Shown: positions 47,816-52,179 of the stretch, in pieces | How positions within the stretch are numbered: position 1 is the first letter of the stretch | Layout: the number at the start of each line of letters is the position of its first letter | NCBI RefSeq assembly: GCF_017349355.1 | Contig: NZ_JAFMPM010000008.1 | Coordinates: 744,001 to 808,000, forward strand | Length of the DNA stretch: 64,000 nucleotides | Direction: 5' to 3' | Source of the DNA: Thiothrix fructosivorans | GTDB lineage: Bacteria; Pseudomonadota; Gammaproteobacteria; Thiotrichales; Thiotrichaceae | The notes under the pieces: model-generated | Seen by the model: the letters and a program-made list of their open reading frames with translations, nothing else | The model's database searches: none | What the model was told of the DNA's origin: nothing | Position numbers and translations under genes: made by a program

Positions 47816-47909
47816 TATAGTAGCCTTGTCCTAACTCAATCTGGGCAGGAGGCGTTAGTTGTTGTGCAGAAGACGCCCTCTGTTGAATTGGCAGAAGTTT
47901 GATGCTGTT

Positions 47910-48680
47910 TCAGAAAGGCGGAGTGTAGCCAACGTAACTCCATGATTGTATGGCATGGTGGCTGTTGTCCTGTAACATTTCCAGAGATTGAGAATTTTTG
48001 GTGTATTGTAAAAAGGCTGTTTCAGTAAGCTGATCTTTAAGCAATGTTTTATTTTCTGCTTGTAAGTTGGAGTGTTGGTCAATTTGAGAAAAAATATCTT
48101 TCCATAACTCAACAAATTGAATGAGTGGATTATTTATCTGAGTAGTTTTGGAGCTGATAGGCACGTTGTATATTTGGGGTAGAAATAATTCGTTGTCTTT
48201 GTGATCGGTTGATGATTCTGTATCGGTATTTTTACCATCCAGTAAGGTTTTGGTATGTTGGGTGAAATTTTCTTCTTCATCTGCTCTGTGCATAAGTGCG
48301 GGAGCTTCTTCCAGCAAAAAGTCTTTAGCATATTTTGGGGTTTGCAAGTGCGTTAAGTCTGGAGTTGGCTGGTCTTTTGGGCAATCTATTTTTACAAAGC
48401 AGGTGTCTGGCAGAGACTTTTCTTTGCTAGTTTTTGAGGTAATATCAGTGAGAGAGGGGGTAATGTCTATCGCTTTTTCCTGTTTGATTTGTGCGAGATC
48501 CAGCATATTATTCAGATTTTTGTTGGAAACAGCATAGCTATTTTGTTTCAGACTGCTGACAGTGGTTGTTTTAGGTGCTATTAGGTCACTGGTTGTGGTG
48601 CAGGCGGTTGTTCCGGTAAACAGAGGCAGCAACAGCGCCAGCGGATGCGCTATCACGCTGAATTTAGTGTTCAAAGCCAT
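47910..48680 (-). CDS. Putative lipoprotein of the curli-like locus, unknown function
   Basis: 256 residues. A signal peptide with a lipobox-like TGTTAC near residue 27 suggests lipid anchoring. The rest is hydrophilic, rich in Lys, Asp, Thr and Gln, with low complexity, and has no recognisable domain; a Cys pair (DTCFVKIDCP) sits mid-protein. AAGGAG precedes the ATG. AT-rich codons are shared with the four genes upstream on the same strand and differ from the flanking housekeeping genes. Last gene of the CsgG-like cluster, 106 bases after the preceding gene. Confidence 0.55.
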   Translation of the reverse strand: MALNTKFSVIAHPLALLLPLFTGTTACTTTSDLIAPKTTTVSSLKQNSYAVSNKNLNNMLDLAQIKQEKAIDITPSLTDITSKTSKEKSLPDTCFVKIDCPKDQPTPDLTHLQTPKYAKDFLLEEAPALMHRADEEENFTQHTKTLLDGKNTDTESSTDHKDNELFLPQIYNVPISSKTTQINNPLIQFVELWKDIFSQIDQHSNLQAENKTLLKDQLTETAFLQYTKNSQSLEMLQDNSHHAIQSWSYVGYTPPF

Positions 48681-48786
48681 TTTTCTTCTCCTTGAGCTGT
48701 TTGGCTAAAATATTTTATTGTGGCTGTAATAGAATGAACCAAGCTTAATGGCTCAACGCTTAGGGAAAAGGAGGTTAAAACCCCGT

Positions 48787-49428
48787 TTATGGTGAGTTGG
48801 ATGGGGTGCTTTTTGTGCCATTCAAGTCAAGGTAATTACCTGCTTGGAGCTGTGTGCTCATAGTGCTTGAGCCATTAACAGAAATCGAGACAGTGGGAGC
48901 AATGAATTTTTGATTTAATGTTCCGCTGTTGGCGCCATTGATAATAGTGGCATTGCCAGCTTGAATATTGGTATTGAAGTCAGTACCTATTTTGTTGAAG
49001 CTGGCGGTATTAGTGGATAATAACTGTGAATAATTACCAGTGGCATTAGTGCCAATTTCCAATAGGTTACCGGCTTGCAAGTTATTTTTGCCAGATTGAT
49101 TCAAGTTGAAAGCCCCTGTGTTTATAACCGCTTGATCACTTTTGGTGATGGCAGCCGTTGCAGAAATATAGTTGGCTGCCTGCTTGTTATTTTGTCCACC
49201 TGTTTGGTTCAACGTAAGATTACTGGATGTAGTTGTTTGCTGGGCTTCATCGATTACGTTGCTCAAAGCAATTTGGTTGATTGTTTGTACACTGCTTTCA
49301 GCGTTTGTCTGAGTTAATTCAGTATTACCTAGCGTTGCATTTTGGATGATTGTCCAGCCGTTGCCAGAACCAGTGGCTGGTATTAAAACCAGCCAGCCTG
49401 CTATATAAGTGAACCATTTGGCGTTCAT
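48787..49428 (-). CDS. Secreted Q/N-rich repeat protein, putative amyloid subunit (minor)
   Basis: 213 residues. A signal-like N-terminus (about 1-23) is followed by WTIIQNATLGNTELTQTNAE and then four repeats anchored by QAAN (83-86), QAGN (118-121), QAGN (156-159) and QAGN (195-198), 35-39 residues apart. Each unit has LxxNQxGxxN before the anchor, similar in style to curlin repeats (QxGxxN). It is a paralogue of the protein at 50812, sharing the repeat period and the short NP/SP tail. AAGGAA precedes the ATG, which lies 3 bases after the CsgG-like gene. Likely secreted through that channel. Confidence 0.6.
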   Translation of the reverse strand: MNAKWFTYIAGWLVLIPATGSGNGWTIIQNATLGNTELTQTNAESSVQTINQIALSNVIDEAQQTTTSSNLTLNQTGGQNNKQAANYISATAAITKSDQAVINTGAFNLNQSGKNNLQAGNLLEIGTNATGNYSQLLSTNTASFNKIGTDFNTNIQAGNATIINGANSGTLNQKFIAPTVSISVNGSSTMSTQLQAGNYLDLNGTKSTPSNSP

Positions 49429-49431
49429 ATA

Positions 49432-50391
49432 TTATTTCCTTCCAACAGTCACTCGCTGTTGGGGGGTCAGGCAGGAAGAAAAGTCGATTTCATCACCATA
49501 GGCTTTGTCTACAACCCACATGGCGGCTGCATCCAGCAGGGTTTGTTGGGCGCTATGCAACCCTTCTACCATGACTTCGCTGTAGGAATAACCATAGAAA
49601 CCGTCACCCAAGGCTACACGGAAACGTTTCTTGTCGTTGGTGCGGCTAAATGTAAGGTCAAATGAGCGCGAACTTACCACCAAATTAGTGCGTGGATCAA
49701 TTAGGTTAACTGCCAAGGTAAGAGATCGGGCAGAGTTGGTTTTACCGAAGTCGATTTGCCCACTTTTTTCTTCGTCAGTATCACTTTTACTACCAGCATT
49801 GTGTCCGTCGCCTTCCTGATAGAAGTTGTCACCGTCCATACGGGTAAATGAACCATCTACAACAAGTGGAATGATACTATCGGCAGGAGGAAGCTGTTTT
49901 GTTGATCTAGAAGCATCGACAATGCTGCGAAAAATAGAGGTAAACGCATGGACGTTTTTGGAAGAGGGTAGACCAAAACGGTTGAGACCCGTGTCATCCT
50001 CTTTTGTCAGTTGCTGGAAGATAGTTGGATATTTGTCTGTGACTAAACCAACGTGTGGGTGAATCTGCTCACTTAACGTGTTGATAAACTGAACTCTTCC
50101 CGCATCTGACAGTGCGCCGTTTTGGTATGGACCTTCTTTAACTGTGCCATCTGGCAGATCACGTACCAAGAAAATGTAGGCACGGGATGAGGTTGAGGCA
50201 GCCAGTCCATTGCCCATACACTGGATGGCTTGGGTGATGTTGGTACGGCTGGGTGTGGGTGTTTGAGCTAACATGGGTTCAATGTGAGTGACGCTATATG
50301 CCCCGCAGCCAGACAGTGCTAGCAGCGTAGCGGAAACAAACGTTAGCCCTATTTTTTTTCTGAAGCCAGTCTTATTATTGACAGTTTTCAA
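49432..50391 (-). CDS. CsgG/HfaB-like outer-membrane secretion lipoprotein
   Basis: 319 residues. A lipoprotein signal peptide ends LALSGC (Cys29), as in CsgG. The body fits the CsgG family: SRTNITQAIQCMGNGL, a central VGLVTDKYPTIFQQL, PLVVDGSFTRMDGDNF and then SLTLAVNLIDPRTNLVVSS with the C-terminal AAMWVVDKAYG. CsgG forms a nonameric pore that exports curli subunits; HfaB is the Caulobacter holdfast counterpart, closer in length to this one. The start is TTG 50391, with GAGGAA 7 bases upstream, inside the end of the preceding gene (17-base overlap). Assignment is by pattern and context. Confidence 0.65.
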   Translation of the reverse strand: MKTVNNKTGFRKKIGLTFVSATLLALSGCGAYSVTHIEPMLAQTPTPSRTNITQAIQCMGNGLAASTSSRAYIFLVRDLPDGTVKEGPYQNGALSDAGRVQFINTLSEQIHPHVGLVTDKYPTIFQQLTKEDDTGLNRFGLPSSKNVHAFTSIFRSIVDASRSTKQLPPADSIIPLVVDGSFTRMDGDNFYQEGDGHNAGSKSDTDEEKSGQIDFGKTNSARSLTLAVNLIDPRTNLVVSSRSFDLTFSRTNDKKRFRVALGDGFYGYSYSEVMVEGLHSAQQTLLDAAAMWVVDKAYGDEIDFSSCLTPQQRVTVGRK

Positions 50392-50752
50392 AATTCACTT
50401 CCTCAATATAAACATTACTAAAAACTTCCAGTCCACCGGCAGGAATGGGATTATCACCTTCACTATTGCTTACATACGTGCCATAAAATGCACATGATGG
50501 TTTGTCAATATTATCTACATAAAAGGTATTACCATCAGGAGATGTCACTTTATAACCATCTGTATTTTCTACTATTGGTTCAAAACCGAAATTGACCATT
50601 GATTCGTGGAGTAATGTGCCTGCATCAAGTGACTCATATTCAGCGGGTATATTTGGATAAGTTGGATACAATGGATCATCTATTGCCATGGTATTTTGCG
50701 TTGGCAACCATGACACGAAAATAATAAATCGCATGTGAGCAATTATGTTCAC
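50375..50752 (-). CDS. Small exported protein of the curli-like locus, unknown
   Basis: 125 residues: a short hydrophobic N-terminus (FIIFVSWL) with possible cleavage near TMA, then an acidic, Tyr/Pro/Asn-rich mature part with two cysteines (KPSCAFYG and the terminal ENCQ) that could form a disulfide. The N-terminal part looks like a pilin-like tail (LPTYPNIPAEYESLDAGTLL) but no family is recognised. GTG 50752 is chosen because GGGAG lies 7 bases upstream. It is coupled to the CsgG-like gene; by position it could be a CsgE/CsgF or HfaA analogue. Confidence 0.5.
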   Translation of the reverse strand: MNIIAHMRFIIFVSWLPTQNTMAIDDPLYPTYPNIPAEYESLDAGTLLHESMVNFGFEPIVENTDGYKVTSPDGNTFYVDNIDKPSCAFYGTYVSNSEGDNPIPAGGLEVFSNVYIEEVNFENCQ

Positions 50753-50776
50753 ACTATTACTCCCTGCTTTAAAGTC

Positions 50777-50801
50777 AGGAAGCCCTGCTTTAGGGCTTCC
50801 T
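50777..50801 (-). repeat. 10-bp perfect hairpin after the major amyloid-like gene
   Basis: AGGAAGCCCT (50777-50786) and AGGGCTTCCT (50792-50801) form a ten-pair stem with a five-base loop, starting 11 bases after the stop codon of the gene at 50812. No T-run follows on the minus strand. Partial termination or mRNA stabilisation would let the first gene be made in excess, as in pilus and curli operons. Confidence 0.65.
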
Positions 50802-50811
50802 AGCTTTTCTG

Positions 50812-51603
50812 TTATGGATTGGTTTTTACGCCTGCATAGTTGGCTGATTGATAAGAGCTTGTTGTTCCATCTTGAGTCATCGCCAATGTACTAGCGGTTG
50901 TGTATTTTTGGTTGAGTGAACCACCACTTACTGCTGAACCATCACCAATTAACATGGCATTGCCACTTTGGAAAGCAGAGGTTGTTGATTTTTGATCCAT
51001 TGTAACATCTTTAACGGTAATTGTCTGGTTGACACCTGAAGTAGCTGTTGAGACGCCGACCGATAACAAATTGCCCACTTGTGTATTTTGGGTAGAAGCG
51101 CCCTCTTGATTCATGTCCAGTGTTGTGCCAGTGGAAGTGATTTTCTGTTCTAATTTGGTTATTACTTCACCATTGACTTCATTAACGGCTTGCGTATTAG
51201 TGGCTAGGGTTGCAGCGTTTTGGTCTAATTTGATTGTACCCGCAGTCATTTGAACATCTTGTGTGAGATCTGTAACTGTTTGAGCAACTGCTCGGTTCGC
51301 TGCCTGCTTTGAGGTATCTGTACTCGCCGCTTGTATCAAATTAAGCGTGTTAGCACCCGCTTTGACAGTTTGAGTTGAGCCTGTGTCAATAATACCGTCA
51401 GTTGTGTCTAAGTTTATATTGTTTAAACTTTGAACTGAACCGCTGGTGCCAGCCGCCGCTGTATTTGTTTGTGTCAGAGTGGTATTTGCACCAACAGCAG
51501 ATACATCAACATCTTGTGTTACTTTCCAGCTATCAGCCATAGCAGAAGTAGAGAGGATTGCAGTTGAGATAGCAACTGCTAACGAGAATTTTATAATTTT
51601 CAT
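50812..51603 (-). CDS. Secreted Q/N-rich repeat protein, putative amyloid subunit (major)
   Basis: 263 residues, signal peptide 1-23 (cleavage after AMA), no cysteine. The mature chain is Thr/Gln/Asn/Ser/Ala-rich and built of ~38-residue repeats anchored by QAAN (100-103), QAVN (138-141), QVGN (175-178), QSGN (212-215) and QSAN (252-255). Each unit alternates hydrophobic and Thr/Gln positions (TLNLIQ, TIKLDQ, TLDMNQ, VTMDQ, LAMTQ), as expected for a stacked beta-solenoid or curlin-like amyloid. Being first in the cluster and followed by a hairpin, it is probably the abundant subunit. Amyloid formation is an inference. Confidence 0.6.
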   Translation of the reverse strand: MKIIKFSLAVAISTAILSTSAMADSWKVTQDVDVSAVGANTTLTQTNTAAAGTSGSVQSLNNINLDTTDGIIDTGSTQTVKAGANTLNLIQAASTDTSKQAANRAVAQTVTDLTQDVQMTAGTIKLDQNAATLATNTQAVNEVNGEVITKLEQKITSTGTTLDMNQEGASTQNTQVGNLLSVGVSTATSGVNQTITVKDVTMDQKSTTSAFQSGNAMLIGDGSAVSGGSLNQKYTTASTLAMTQDGTTSSYQSANYAGVKTNP

Positions 51604-52179
51604 AATATTAAGTCCTTGGTCAAAAAATCAAGTAAAAAGCGAAAAATTACTTAAAATCCTTTTTCCCCAAAAACAAGCACAAAATCCCTCTGTGCAGGAG
51701 CAATGCCGCTTTATCCTGTTTGCCAAAAATTACTGAAAAATAATGAATGAACTTACTTGATAAAGTTCTGTTCATGCCCCAGTAATACCATTTTTTAAGA
51801 TTAAATTTTCTTAACTTATATGCGTGATTTGTTTTTGTAAAAATATTATTTTTATGGTTAAAAACACCTGCAATTAGTTGATGGTTATTAAATAATTAAT
51901 AACGTAGACGCTTTAAATTGAACTGTGTATCAATACAAGTGGAGTCAATAGATTACAAAATTCTTTTATTCATAATAGGCTCTATTTTTTGTTAATTTAT
52001 TGGAATTATGTTTAGTTTGCATAGAGTTCAAGTTTATTGCCCCATGAACTGAGTGTATAGTATACAGATTGTGTCCGTTTGACTAGACTTGTGATAATAT
52101 TTTTTTATCATTTATTTGTTTAATAAATAGACAGTTGGCTAGCTAAAAATGATCAAAAATAATGCATCCGAGGACTACC
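51604..52179. other. AT-rich intergenic region between the amyloid-like cluster and the flotillin-like gene
   Basis: About 575 bases with no credible coding sequence and many A/T tracts. It must hold the divergent promoters for the minus-strand cluster (start 51603) and the plus-strand gene at 52180. No clear -35/-10 pair, FNR box or Pho box stands out. The base composition suggests foreign origin or binding by a nucleoid protein such as H-NS. Confidence 0.6.

Follow-up and report, generated by a model that had tools for sequence, protein, structure and literature searches.

A conserved gene set of Thiothrix fructosivorans for a candidate surface-fibre system with 35-42-residue Gln/Asn repeats

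Do five neighbouring genes of Thiothrix fructosivorans encode an undescribed system that exports and assembles fibres at the cell surface, and how does it relate to curli and holdfast? Few systems for the export of functional amyloids are known in detail, and the bacteria hosting this locus are known for rosettes and for surface fouling. A sequence-only reading of the stretch of 64,000 nucleotides analysed here (the window) had proposed a curli/holdfast-like amyloid secretion locus with a CsgG/HfaB-type pore. The five same-strand genes, the lipobox, the Q-x-x-N anchors and the gene couplings on which this proposal was based were all re-found in the sequence. The five open reading frames lie on the minus strand at 47910..51603, at the coordinates given before, and the locus has the following features:

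51604..52161, no strand assigned: AT-rich gap of 558 bases 5' of gene A, presumed promoter region
50812..51603, minus strand: repeat protein A of 263 aa with a signal peptide (by eye), six Q-x-x-N anchors spaced 37-42 residues apart and NYxG close to the C-terminus
51514..51534, minus strand: codons for DSWKVTQ, mature N-terminus of protein A with the W-x3-Q motif, putative functional signal
50777..50801, no strand assigned: inverted repeat separating gene A from the small gene, 10 bp perfect (11 pairs with one G-T), possibly attenuating or mRNA-stabilising
50375..50752, minus strand: small exported protein, 125 aa, two family-conserved Cys
49432..50391, minus strand: lipoprotein of 319 aa with an LSGC lipobox, C58 and C307 being invariant; candidate CsgG-like export pore
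48787..49428, minus strand: repeat protein B, 213 aa, five Q-x-x-N anchors every 35-39 residues
49342..49359, minus strand: codons for GWTIIQ, mature N-terminus of protein B with the W-x3-Q motif, putative functional signal
47910..48680, minus strand: lipoprotein C, candidate cell-surface anchor or nucleator, 256 aa, diverged relative of the L011/L013 lipoproteins

The small open reading frame overlaps the start of the lipoprotein gene by 17 nt, and gene B starts 3 bases after the lipoprotein gene. The genes are AT-rich as claimed, with a GC content of 0.39-0.46 compared to mostly 0.47-0.58 in the flanks, and the GC content falls to 0.30 in the gap upstream of gene A, where promoter-like sites showed no excess (13 versus 10.6 in shuffles). 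The 10-bp hairpin reported 3' of gene A is present as a perfect inverted repeat; in a scan it appeared terminator-like on the opposite strand, and no long T-run follows it in the coding direction. Judged by eye, all five proteins carry signal peptides for export by the Sec pathway.

The gene set recurs in other genomes, as the sequence-only reading had suggested checking. We found 16 lipoprotein loci in 14 genomes from two phyla, the carriers including a Cycloclasticus symbiont, a Desulfobulbaceae metagenome-assembled genome and four genomes from another order of the same class. The small exported protein adjoins the lipoprotein in 15 of the 16 loci, and the order repeat protein A, small protein, lipoprotein, repeat protein B is kept in 11 of them, with 24-70% identity among the lipoprotein homologues. 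The distribution is patchy (8/63 genomes of the order), and searches of phages, plasmids and viral contigs returned no relatives of the lipoprotein. The locus is a conserved system, and the proposed grouping, in which secreted Gln/Asn repeat proteins accompany a lipoprotein and its small exported partner, is borne out as a coherent, operon-like and conserved unit. A gene for a regulator that adjoins the system in two genomes (G008 and G003) was rejected as a component for lack of specificity, relatives of it being present in 14 of the 16 genomes of the genus.

All the Q-x-x-N anchors listed by the sequence-only reading were found, plus one more in each protein (at position 58 in A and 48 in B). 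The anchors lie at 58, 100, 138, 175, 212 and 252 in protein A (50812) and at 48, 83, 118, 156 and 195 in protein B (48787), with a spacing of 35-42 residues across the two proteins. Both counts exceed those in composition shuffles (6 versus 0.80, p<=0.0005, for A; 5 versus 1.05, p<=0.003, for B), and A and B are the only ones among the 278 window ORFs of 60 aa or more with at least four anchors. Over the whole family, the repeat statistics gave p<=0.035 in 25 of 28 proteins, the exceptions being the three C lipoproteins, and a repeat alignment was built from 170 anchors. In addition, 25 repeat proteins of types A, B and D begin their mature part with a shared W-x3-Q motif (found by pattern in 22 and by inspection in three); it is missing from three short repeat proteins of loci L021/L022. 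Protein A is the most variable in length (208-504 aa, compared to 213-293 aa for B). Lipoprotein C has no Q-x-x-N anchors; its relatives are lipoproteins of loci L011 and L013, whose repeats are degenerate (E=0.00047 for the match among the 278 window ORFs).

Are these repeats curlins? The Pfam curlin model PF07012 did not match any of nine family repeat proteins or the three window proteins, and our own curlin model scored the repeat proteins at shuffle level; in a control, PF07012 matched a protein encoded beside a csgG at 2.6e-16. The NCBIfam CsgA model listed protein B only at E=3, and conversely the model built from the new repeats does not see curlins. The curlin-type pattern Q-x-[GN]-x-x-N was not enriched in protein A (0 versus 0.29) or protein B (2 versus 0.67, p 0.13); it was enriched in one relative (5 versus 0.50). 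As judged from their sequences, the repeats form a separate family, distinct from curlin. The small exported protein has conserved cysteines at C83 (11/11 alignment rows) and C120 (at least 90%). A look-alike N-terminus had suggested CsgF or CsgE, and both identities were rejected in hhalign comparisons, where 66 of 100 shuffles scored as well for CsgF and 4/100, over 7 columns, for CsgE. The earlier statement that no csgD, csgE, csgF or hfaD homologue can be recognised holds, for CsgE and CsgF by profile comparison and for csgD and hfaD as judged by eye.

The assignment of the lipoprotein to the CsgG/HfaB type was not established. Its LALSGC lipobox is present as read by eye, with a Cys that is invariant in the 11 rows of alignment A6. 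The Pfam CsgG model (PF03783) had no match in the window genome (G000) or in 11 family members, while it matched in 4 of 14 control genomes; the NCBIfam CsgG and HfaB models did not match the window lipoprotein, with E up to 10 for HfaB (NF037935), and neither did a PDB profile search. More generally, Pfam, NCBIfam and PDB sequence searches named no component of the system. The HfaB model does work in the same bacterial family, where it matched an HfaB-like protein (L051) at E=9.5e-57, below the equivalog cut-off. Early profile matches of the lipoprotein to HfaB-like proteins (E 1.6e-4 to 6e-4, over the first 70-79 positions) were rejected as signs of homology because they were confined to the N-terminal part and were lost once the signal peptide and lipobox were taken away. 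The following shuffle comparisons used the mature lipoprotein. When HfaB was the only reference, 37 of 120 shuffles did as well. In profile-profile comparison with six CsgG sequences none of 120 shuffles was as good; the result was barely over shuffles for a deep CsgG set of 84 sequences (3/60) and for the related lipoprotein group (1/120). Against the pooled CsgG superfamily (47 sequences), the score over 201 columns was 28.7 versus at most 25.0 in 198 shuffles (0/60 and 0/198 shuffles as good), with a probability of only 9%; for all CsgG comparisons of the mature part, the probability was at most 11%. The pooled score exceeds those of eight unrelated families (top 19.6) and drops to 19.6-22.9 once part of the superfamily is omitted. 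An amphipathic beta-hairpin signal was not in excess (top segment KKRFRVALG at 0.80 versus a 95% null of 0.85). The profile comparisons are only suggestive of a resemblance to CsgG-type pores.

We lean towards an undescribed surface-fibre system for outer-membrane export and assembly of solenoid-like repeat proteins, which would be curli-like in its logic, though no established member of the curli or holdfast families. In such a system, all five proteins would leave the cytoplasm by Sec, and the lipoprotein, in the outer membrane, would pass unfolded A and B to the surface together with its small, probably disulfide-bonded partner. The W-x3-Q N-terminus would probably be a recognition signal or cap the first coil. 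Through stacking of the repeats (a strand L-x-L-x-Q, a turn and [SN]-x-Q-A-x-N), Gln and Asn would hold together a beta-solenoid, and A and B would polymerise outside, probably into an amyloid-like fibre. Since its length varies most, we read A as the main subunit; B would be a minor or nucleating subunit and C a lipid-anchored tether. Experiments on members of the family are not known to us.

Curli and HfaABD are reported to bring comparable subunits to the surface via a CsgG-type lipoprotein (PMC3521004, PMC6707917). As in curli, the genes for a lipoprotein and its small exported partner lie here with those for Gln/Asn repeat proteins that are exported too and of which one, A, is very variable in length. 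The new system differs from curli in its 35-42-residue repeats with Q-A-x-N, in having no CsgE or CsgF by sequence and a lipoprotein that Pfam CsgG does not match, in its W-x3-Q mature N-termini and, in three loci, in lipoprotein C. With HfaABD of Caulobacter and the HfaB-like loci of Thiotrichaceae it shares the compact order small protein, lipoprotein, repeat protein and possibly a role in attachment, whereas its lipoprotein is not recognised as HfaB, and the repeat proteins adjoining the HfaB-like genes carry VTAVGNN repeats (by eye). The repeats of the Fap amyloid of Pseudomonas are similar in length to the new ones. Fap is described as having imperfect repeats in which Asn and Gln are conserved, as in the new system, and is set apart by secretion via FapF and FapD (PMC12822426). 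Pfam names none of the five window genes.

Other explanations have to be weighed against this reading. The lipoprotein may be no pore and instead a periplasmic factor for outer-membrane assembly or anchoring, the repeats forming a periplasmic or surface scaffold (e.g. sheath-linked) with another route to the surface. We consider this unlikely. It would agree with the failure of family profiles to recognise CsgG, with the weak CsgG comparison and with the L,D-transpeptidase gene adjoining the Desulfobulbaceae locus (YkuD, E=3.3e-06, over its cut-off). At the C-terminus, some lipoprotein homologues also match SH3 (E=2.9e-5) or peptidoglycan-binding domains (E=0.005-0.05), in every case under the curated cut-off. 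These matches count for the favoured reading too, as they would fit a lipoprotein of the outer membrane whose C-terminus is periplasmic; however, the CsgG-superfamily protein L065 has a C-terminal extension as well (by eye), and gene content offers no other channel candidate in the conserved set.

Still less probable, in our view, is a divergent true member of curli or HfaABD missed by profile methods. The curlin and repeat models are blind to each other's proteins, the small protein is neither CsgF nor CsgE, and the same bacterial family has HfaB-like loci and canonical curli loci as separate entities, one genome (G083) carrying canonical curli plus the new system. These points outweigh for us the shared parts list, the pooled CsgG alignment above shuffles and the C58/C307 pair, which by eye coincides in position with Cys of the HfaB-like proteins. 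Chance, with AT-rich ORFs of low complexity that share no function, might account for the low GC, the biased composition and the patchy distribution. It is hardly credible because the gene set is conserved, with its order, the identity among its lipoproteins and anchor counts far over shuffles all speaking against it.

A bolder version of the favoured reading, which we put forward tentatively, is that outer-membrane export driven by lipoproteins has a third, independent branch in this locus, in which a new pore-plus-adaptor pair would recognise W-x3-Q at the mature N-terminus and assemble Gln/Asn beta-solenoid fibres of a new class, with repeats of 35-42 residues, with which filamentous sulfur bacteria would hold surfaces and one another. 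The new repeat sequence comes with many natural length variants that may serve fibre design and structural work. If the favoured reading is true, the system would allow the requirements of an amyloid exporter to be tested anew, and a gene set with the logic of amyloid export and new parts would be a candidate for the attachment of these bacteria.

The lipoprotein that was proposed as the export pore of the locus belongs to a set of five minus-strand genes, which are listed below in transcription order with the inverted repeat behind the first of them.

Features of the locus (window coordinates)
50812-51603, minus strand: repeat protein A, 263 aa, first in transcription order
50777-50801, between A and the small gene: 10-bp perfect inverted repeat (11 pairs including one G-T)
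50375-50752, minus strand: small exported protein, 125 aa, second
49432-50391, minus strand: lipoprotein, 319 aa, third
48787-49428, minus strand: repeat protein B, 213 aa, fourth
47910-48680, minus strand: second lipoprotein C, 256 aa, fifth

The common strand of the five genes, their AT-richness, their coupling and the 10-bp hairpin after the first subunit gene, all described in the sequence-only reading, were confirmed: the small gene and the lipoprotein gene overlap by 17 nt, 3 bases separate the latter from gene B, and the GC content is 0.39-0.46 within the genes and falls to 0.30 in the gap upstream, compared to mostly 0.47-0.58 in the flanks. The set is flanked by what look like unrelated chromosomal genes: going by family resemblance, pssA, a Crp/Fnr regulator and hemN lie on one flank, and a Band-7 protein and leuA on the opposite one; Crp and Band 7 were confirmed by Pfam. 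Two close relatives differ at this pssA/Band-7 site (window 47816-52161), where surface systems may be exchanged. At the same place, genome G006 (L187:4684-10592) has a different set of six genes for exported proteins, whose weak matches are of WxL-interacting-like and other beta-sandwich types, and G015 (L188:4486-5269) has, by eye, only a short remnant of it.

The repeats were assessed by counting the anchor Q-[AVSTLIGM]-[AGVSLMIT]-N against shuffled sequence. Repeat protein A contains 6 anchors compared to 0.80 expected (p<=0.0005) and B contains 5 compared to 1.05 (p<=0.003), spaced by 35-42 residues, so that the regular Q-x-x-N anchors claimed for two secreted proteins were recovered; among 278 window ORFs of at least 60 aa, no other ORF has four. 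With the relatives included, 25 of 28 repeat or repeat-derived proteins reached p<=0.035; the three C-type lipoproteins (0 anchors in the window, 2 in L011 and 0 in L013) did not. The 170 anchors of the 28 proteins, a count that includes some second matches within a single repeat, fit a single pattern, in which x-[LIV]-x-[LM]-x-Q is followed by a turn of 5-9 and then by [SN]-x-Q-A-x-N. A two-sequence profile related window C to the corresponding lipoproteins of L011 and L013 (E=0.00047), and a single-sequence search in the opposite direction gave no match; C joins these counterparts by ancestry, not by motif count.

The repeat proteins of classes A, B and D also share an N-terminus. W-x2,3-Q occurs within 75 residues, directly after the likely signal-peptidase site, in 22 of 25 proteins (L089, L090 and L209 are near-alike and not independent), each time as W-x3-Q; two of the other three carry W-x3-Q in frame upstream of the ORF-finder start and one just past residue 75. 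This set leaves out the C lipoproteins and also three short repeat proteins from L021 and L022, which do not have the motif. Tryptophan is scarce elsewhere, with 28 of 35 residues (7,618 residues in total) within the first 75. The N-terminal segment of CsgA is a secretion signal; W-x3-Q may be one as well, or cap the first coil.

A curlin model built from 59 canonical units of csg loci fetched in this analysis gave 15-125 bits for ten canonical proteins; none of the 28 new proteins exceeded 5.1 bits, compared to 6.2 for the best of 140 shuffles, and Pfam curlin matched none of nine relatives' and none of three window repeat proteins. We therefore rejected the repeats as curlin. A new-unit model, trained on the same 28 proteins that were scored, gave 24.9-161.5 bits for 24 of them, with 18.5 for the best of 140 shuffles; L013 C (17.5), the Desulfobulbaceae pair (6.9 and 1.8) and window C (2.0) fell below this maximum, and canonical curlins scored at most 2.6. 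The small protein was rejected both as CsgF, where 66/100 shuffles were as good, and as CsgE, where the alignment spans 7 columns and 4/100 shuffles were as good (the control genes for both were named by eye), in line with the reported lack of csgE and csgF homologues.

Whether the lipoprotein is a CsgG/HfaB-type pore, as had been proposed, depends on the set-up of the profile-profile comparison. Direct profile searches gave no match: Pfam CsgG matched neither the window genome nor 11 lipoprotein family members, and NCBIfam and PDB profile searches left the lipoprotein without a match. With signal peptides included, profile-profile comparison gave E-values of 9.5e-05 to HfaB, the lipoprotein of the Caulobacter holdfast anchor HfaABD, and 1.2e-05 to CsgG. 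Mature parts, tested against column shuffles, scored 15.6 with HfaB (37/120 shuffles equally good), 26.9 with six CsgG (0/120), 20.8 with eight related lipoproteins (1/120) and 21.1 with 84 CsgG (3/60). The pool of CsgG, HfaB-like proteins and related lipoproteins gave a score of 28.7 that no shuffle reached (0/60 and 0/198), at a probability of only 9% and with partial pools at 19.6-22.9. For scale, eight unrelated families scored up to 19.6, and the mature parts of HfaB against CsgG 83. In the pooled alignment, which is 201 columns long, DGSFTR, LAVNLIDPRTNLVVSS and EGLHSAQQTLLDAA line up with matching stretches of the CsgG superfamily. On these similarities we lean, at roughly even chances, towards the lipoprotein being a distant CsgG relative.

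HfaB-like proteins occur in Thiotrichaceae genera (L046-L054, L032-L034, L037), outside the Caulobacter setting of the HfaABD studies; L051, the only one scanned, matched NCBIfam HfaB at E=9.5e-57, below the equivalog cut-off. By eye, their genes adjoin HfaA-like and VTAVGNN-repeat HfaD-like genes. Canonical csg-type curli loci are present in other Thiotrichaceae (L201, L202), with csgG identified by Pfam and the remaining genes by eye, and in G083 canonical curli occur together with the new system.

A search for the gene set in other genomes, as suggested by the sequence-only reading, yielded 16 loci in 14 genomes after removal of overlaps. The lipoprotein was found in 6/57 genomes including its own, in 8/63 of the order with three weak N-terminal-only genomes set aside (11/63 at nominal threshold), in two further genomes among 369 of the class, in no new genome of a 398-genome phylum sample, in 4/109 from the order to which G701 belongs, including two new ones, and at 7 loci in a named-genome collection. 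Named hosts are Leucothrix pacifica, Thiotrichaceae MAG S015_18 (two loci), an uncultured Thiotrichaceae MAG, Thiothrix sp. UBA5583, a Cycloclasticus symbiont of Poecilosclerida and Desulfobulbaceae UBA5173. Since only 4/16 genomes of the genus carry it, the system is accessory. The most divergent lipoprotein pair (L014, L023) matches the remaining eleven at 99%. The small protein adjoins the lipoprotein in 15/16 loci, the sixteenth beginning at a contig end, and the order A, small protein, lipoprotein, B holds in 11/16 (10 satisfy a four-anchor rule, and the eleventh, L089, has a B with three anchors). Two other loci have short repeat proteins on the upstream side only, and in the second locus of G003 and in G014, of the same genus as the window genome, a convergent gene encodes a different repeat protein.

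In the first G003 locus (L013:6477-7591) the lipoprotein gene is broken across two frames with open neighbours, by decay or sequencing error. Another repeat protein, which looks unrelated and has NVNG / VVGxQV repeats (L014:6882-7415, L015:8893-9426), is encoded convergently to a divergent lipoprotein copy with a weak C-terminal resemblance to a peptidoglycan-binding domain, and an L,D-transpeptidase (YkuD) gene follows the Desulfobulbaceae copy (L022:7168-7974).

As read from sequence, the system comprises repeat proteins that begin with a signal peptide (by eye) and share an N-terminal motif, together with a dedicated lipoprotein and a conserved partner, all in tight linkage. By the logic of curli and HfaABD, as outlined in passages of PMC3521004 and PMC6707917, the repeat proteins would pass the outer membrane through the lipoprotein and polymerise outside. 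Hydrogen bonds of conserved Gln and Asn stabilise CsgA and FapC (PMC12822426), and the invariant Q and N of the present repeats agree with this. None of the components is named by Pfam or NCBIfam, and full-text searches on Thiothrix holdfast or amyloid, Thiotrichaceae curli, CsgG-like secretion and CsgG with HfaB, largely outside subscription journals, showed no such system in the titles and abstract openings of the papers listed. In our analysis, the logic appears to be the already known one of exported fibre subunits, with component parts that are unassigned. Rosettes are formed by Thiothrix nivea, whose sheath is of unknown structure (PMC3368414), and the genus lives attached (PMC9455678); a link of the locus to the rosettes, the sheath or the attached life of Thiothrix is conjectural.
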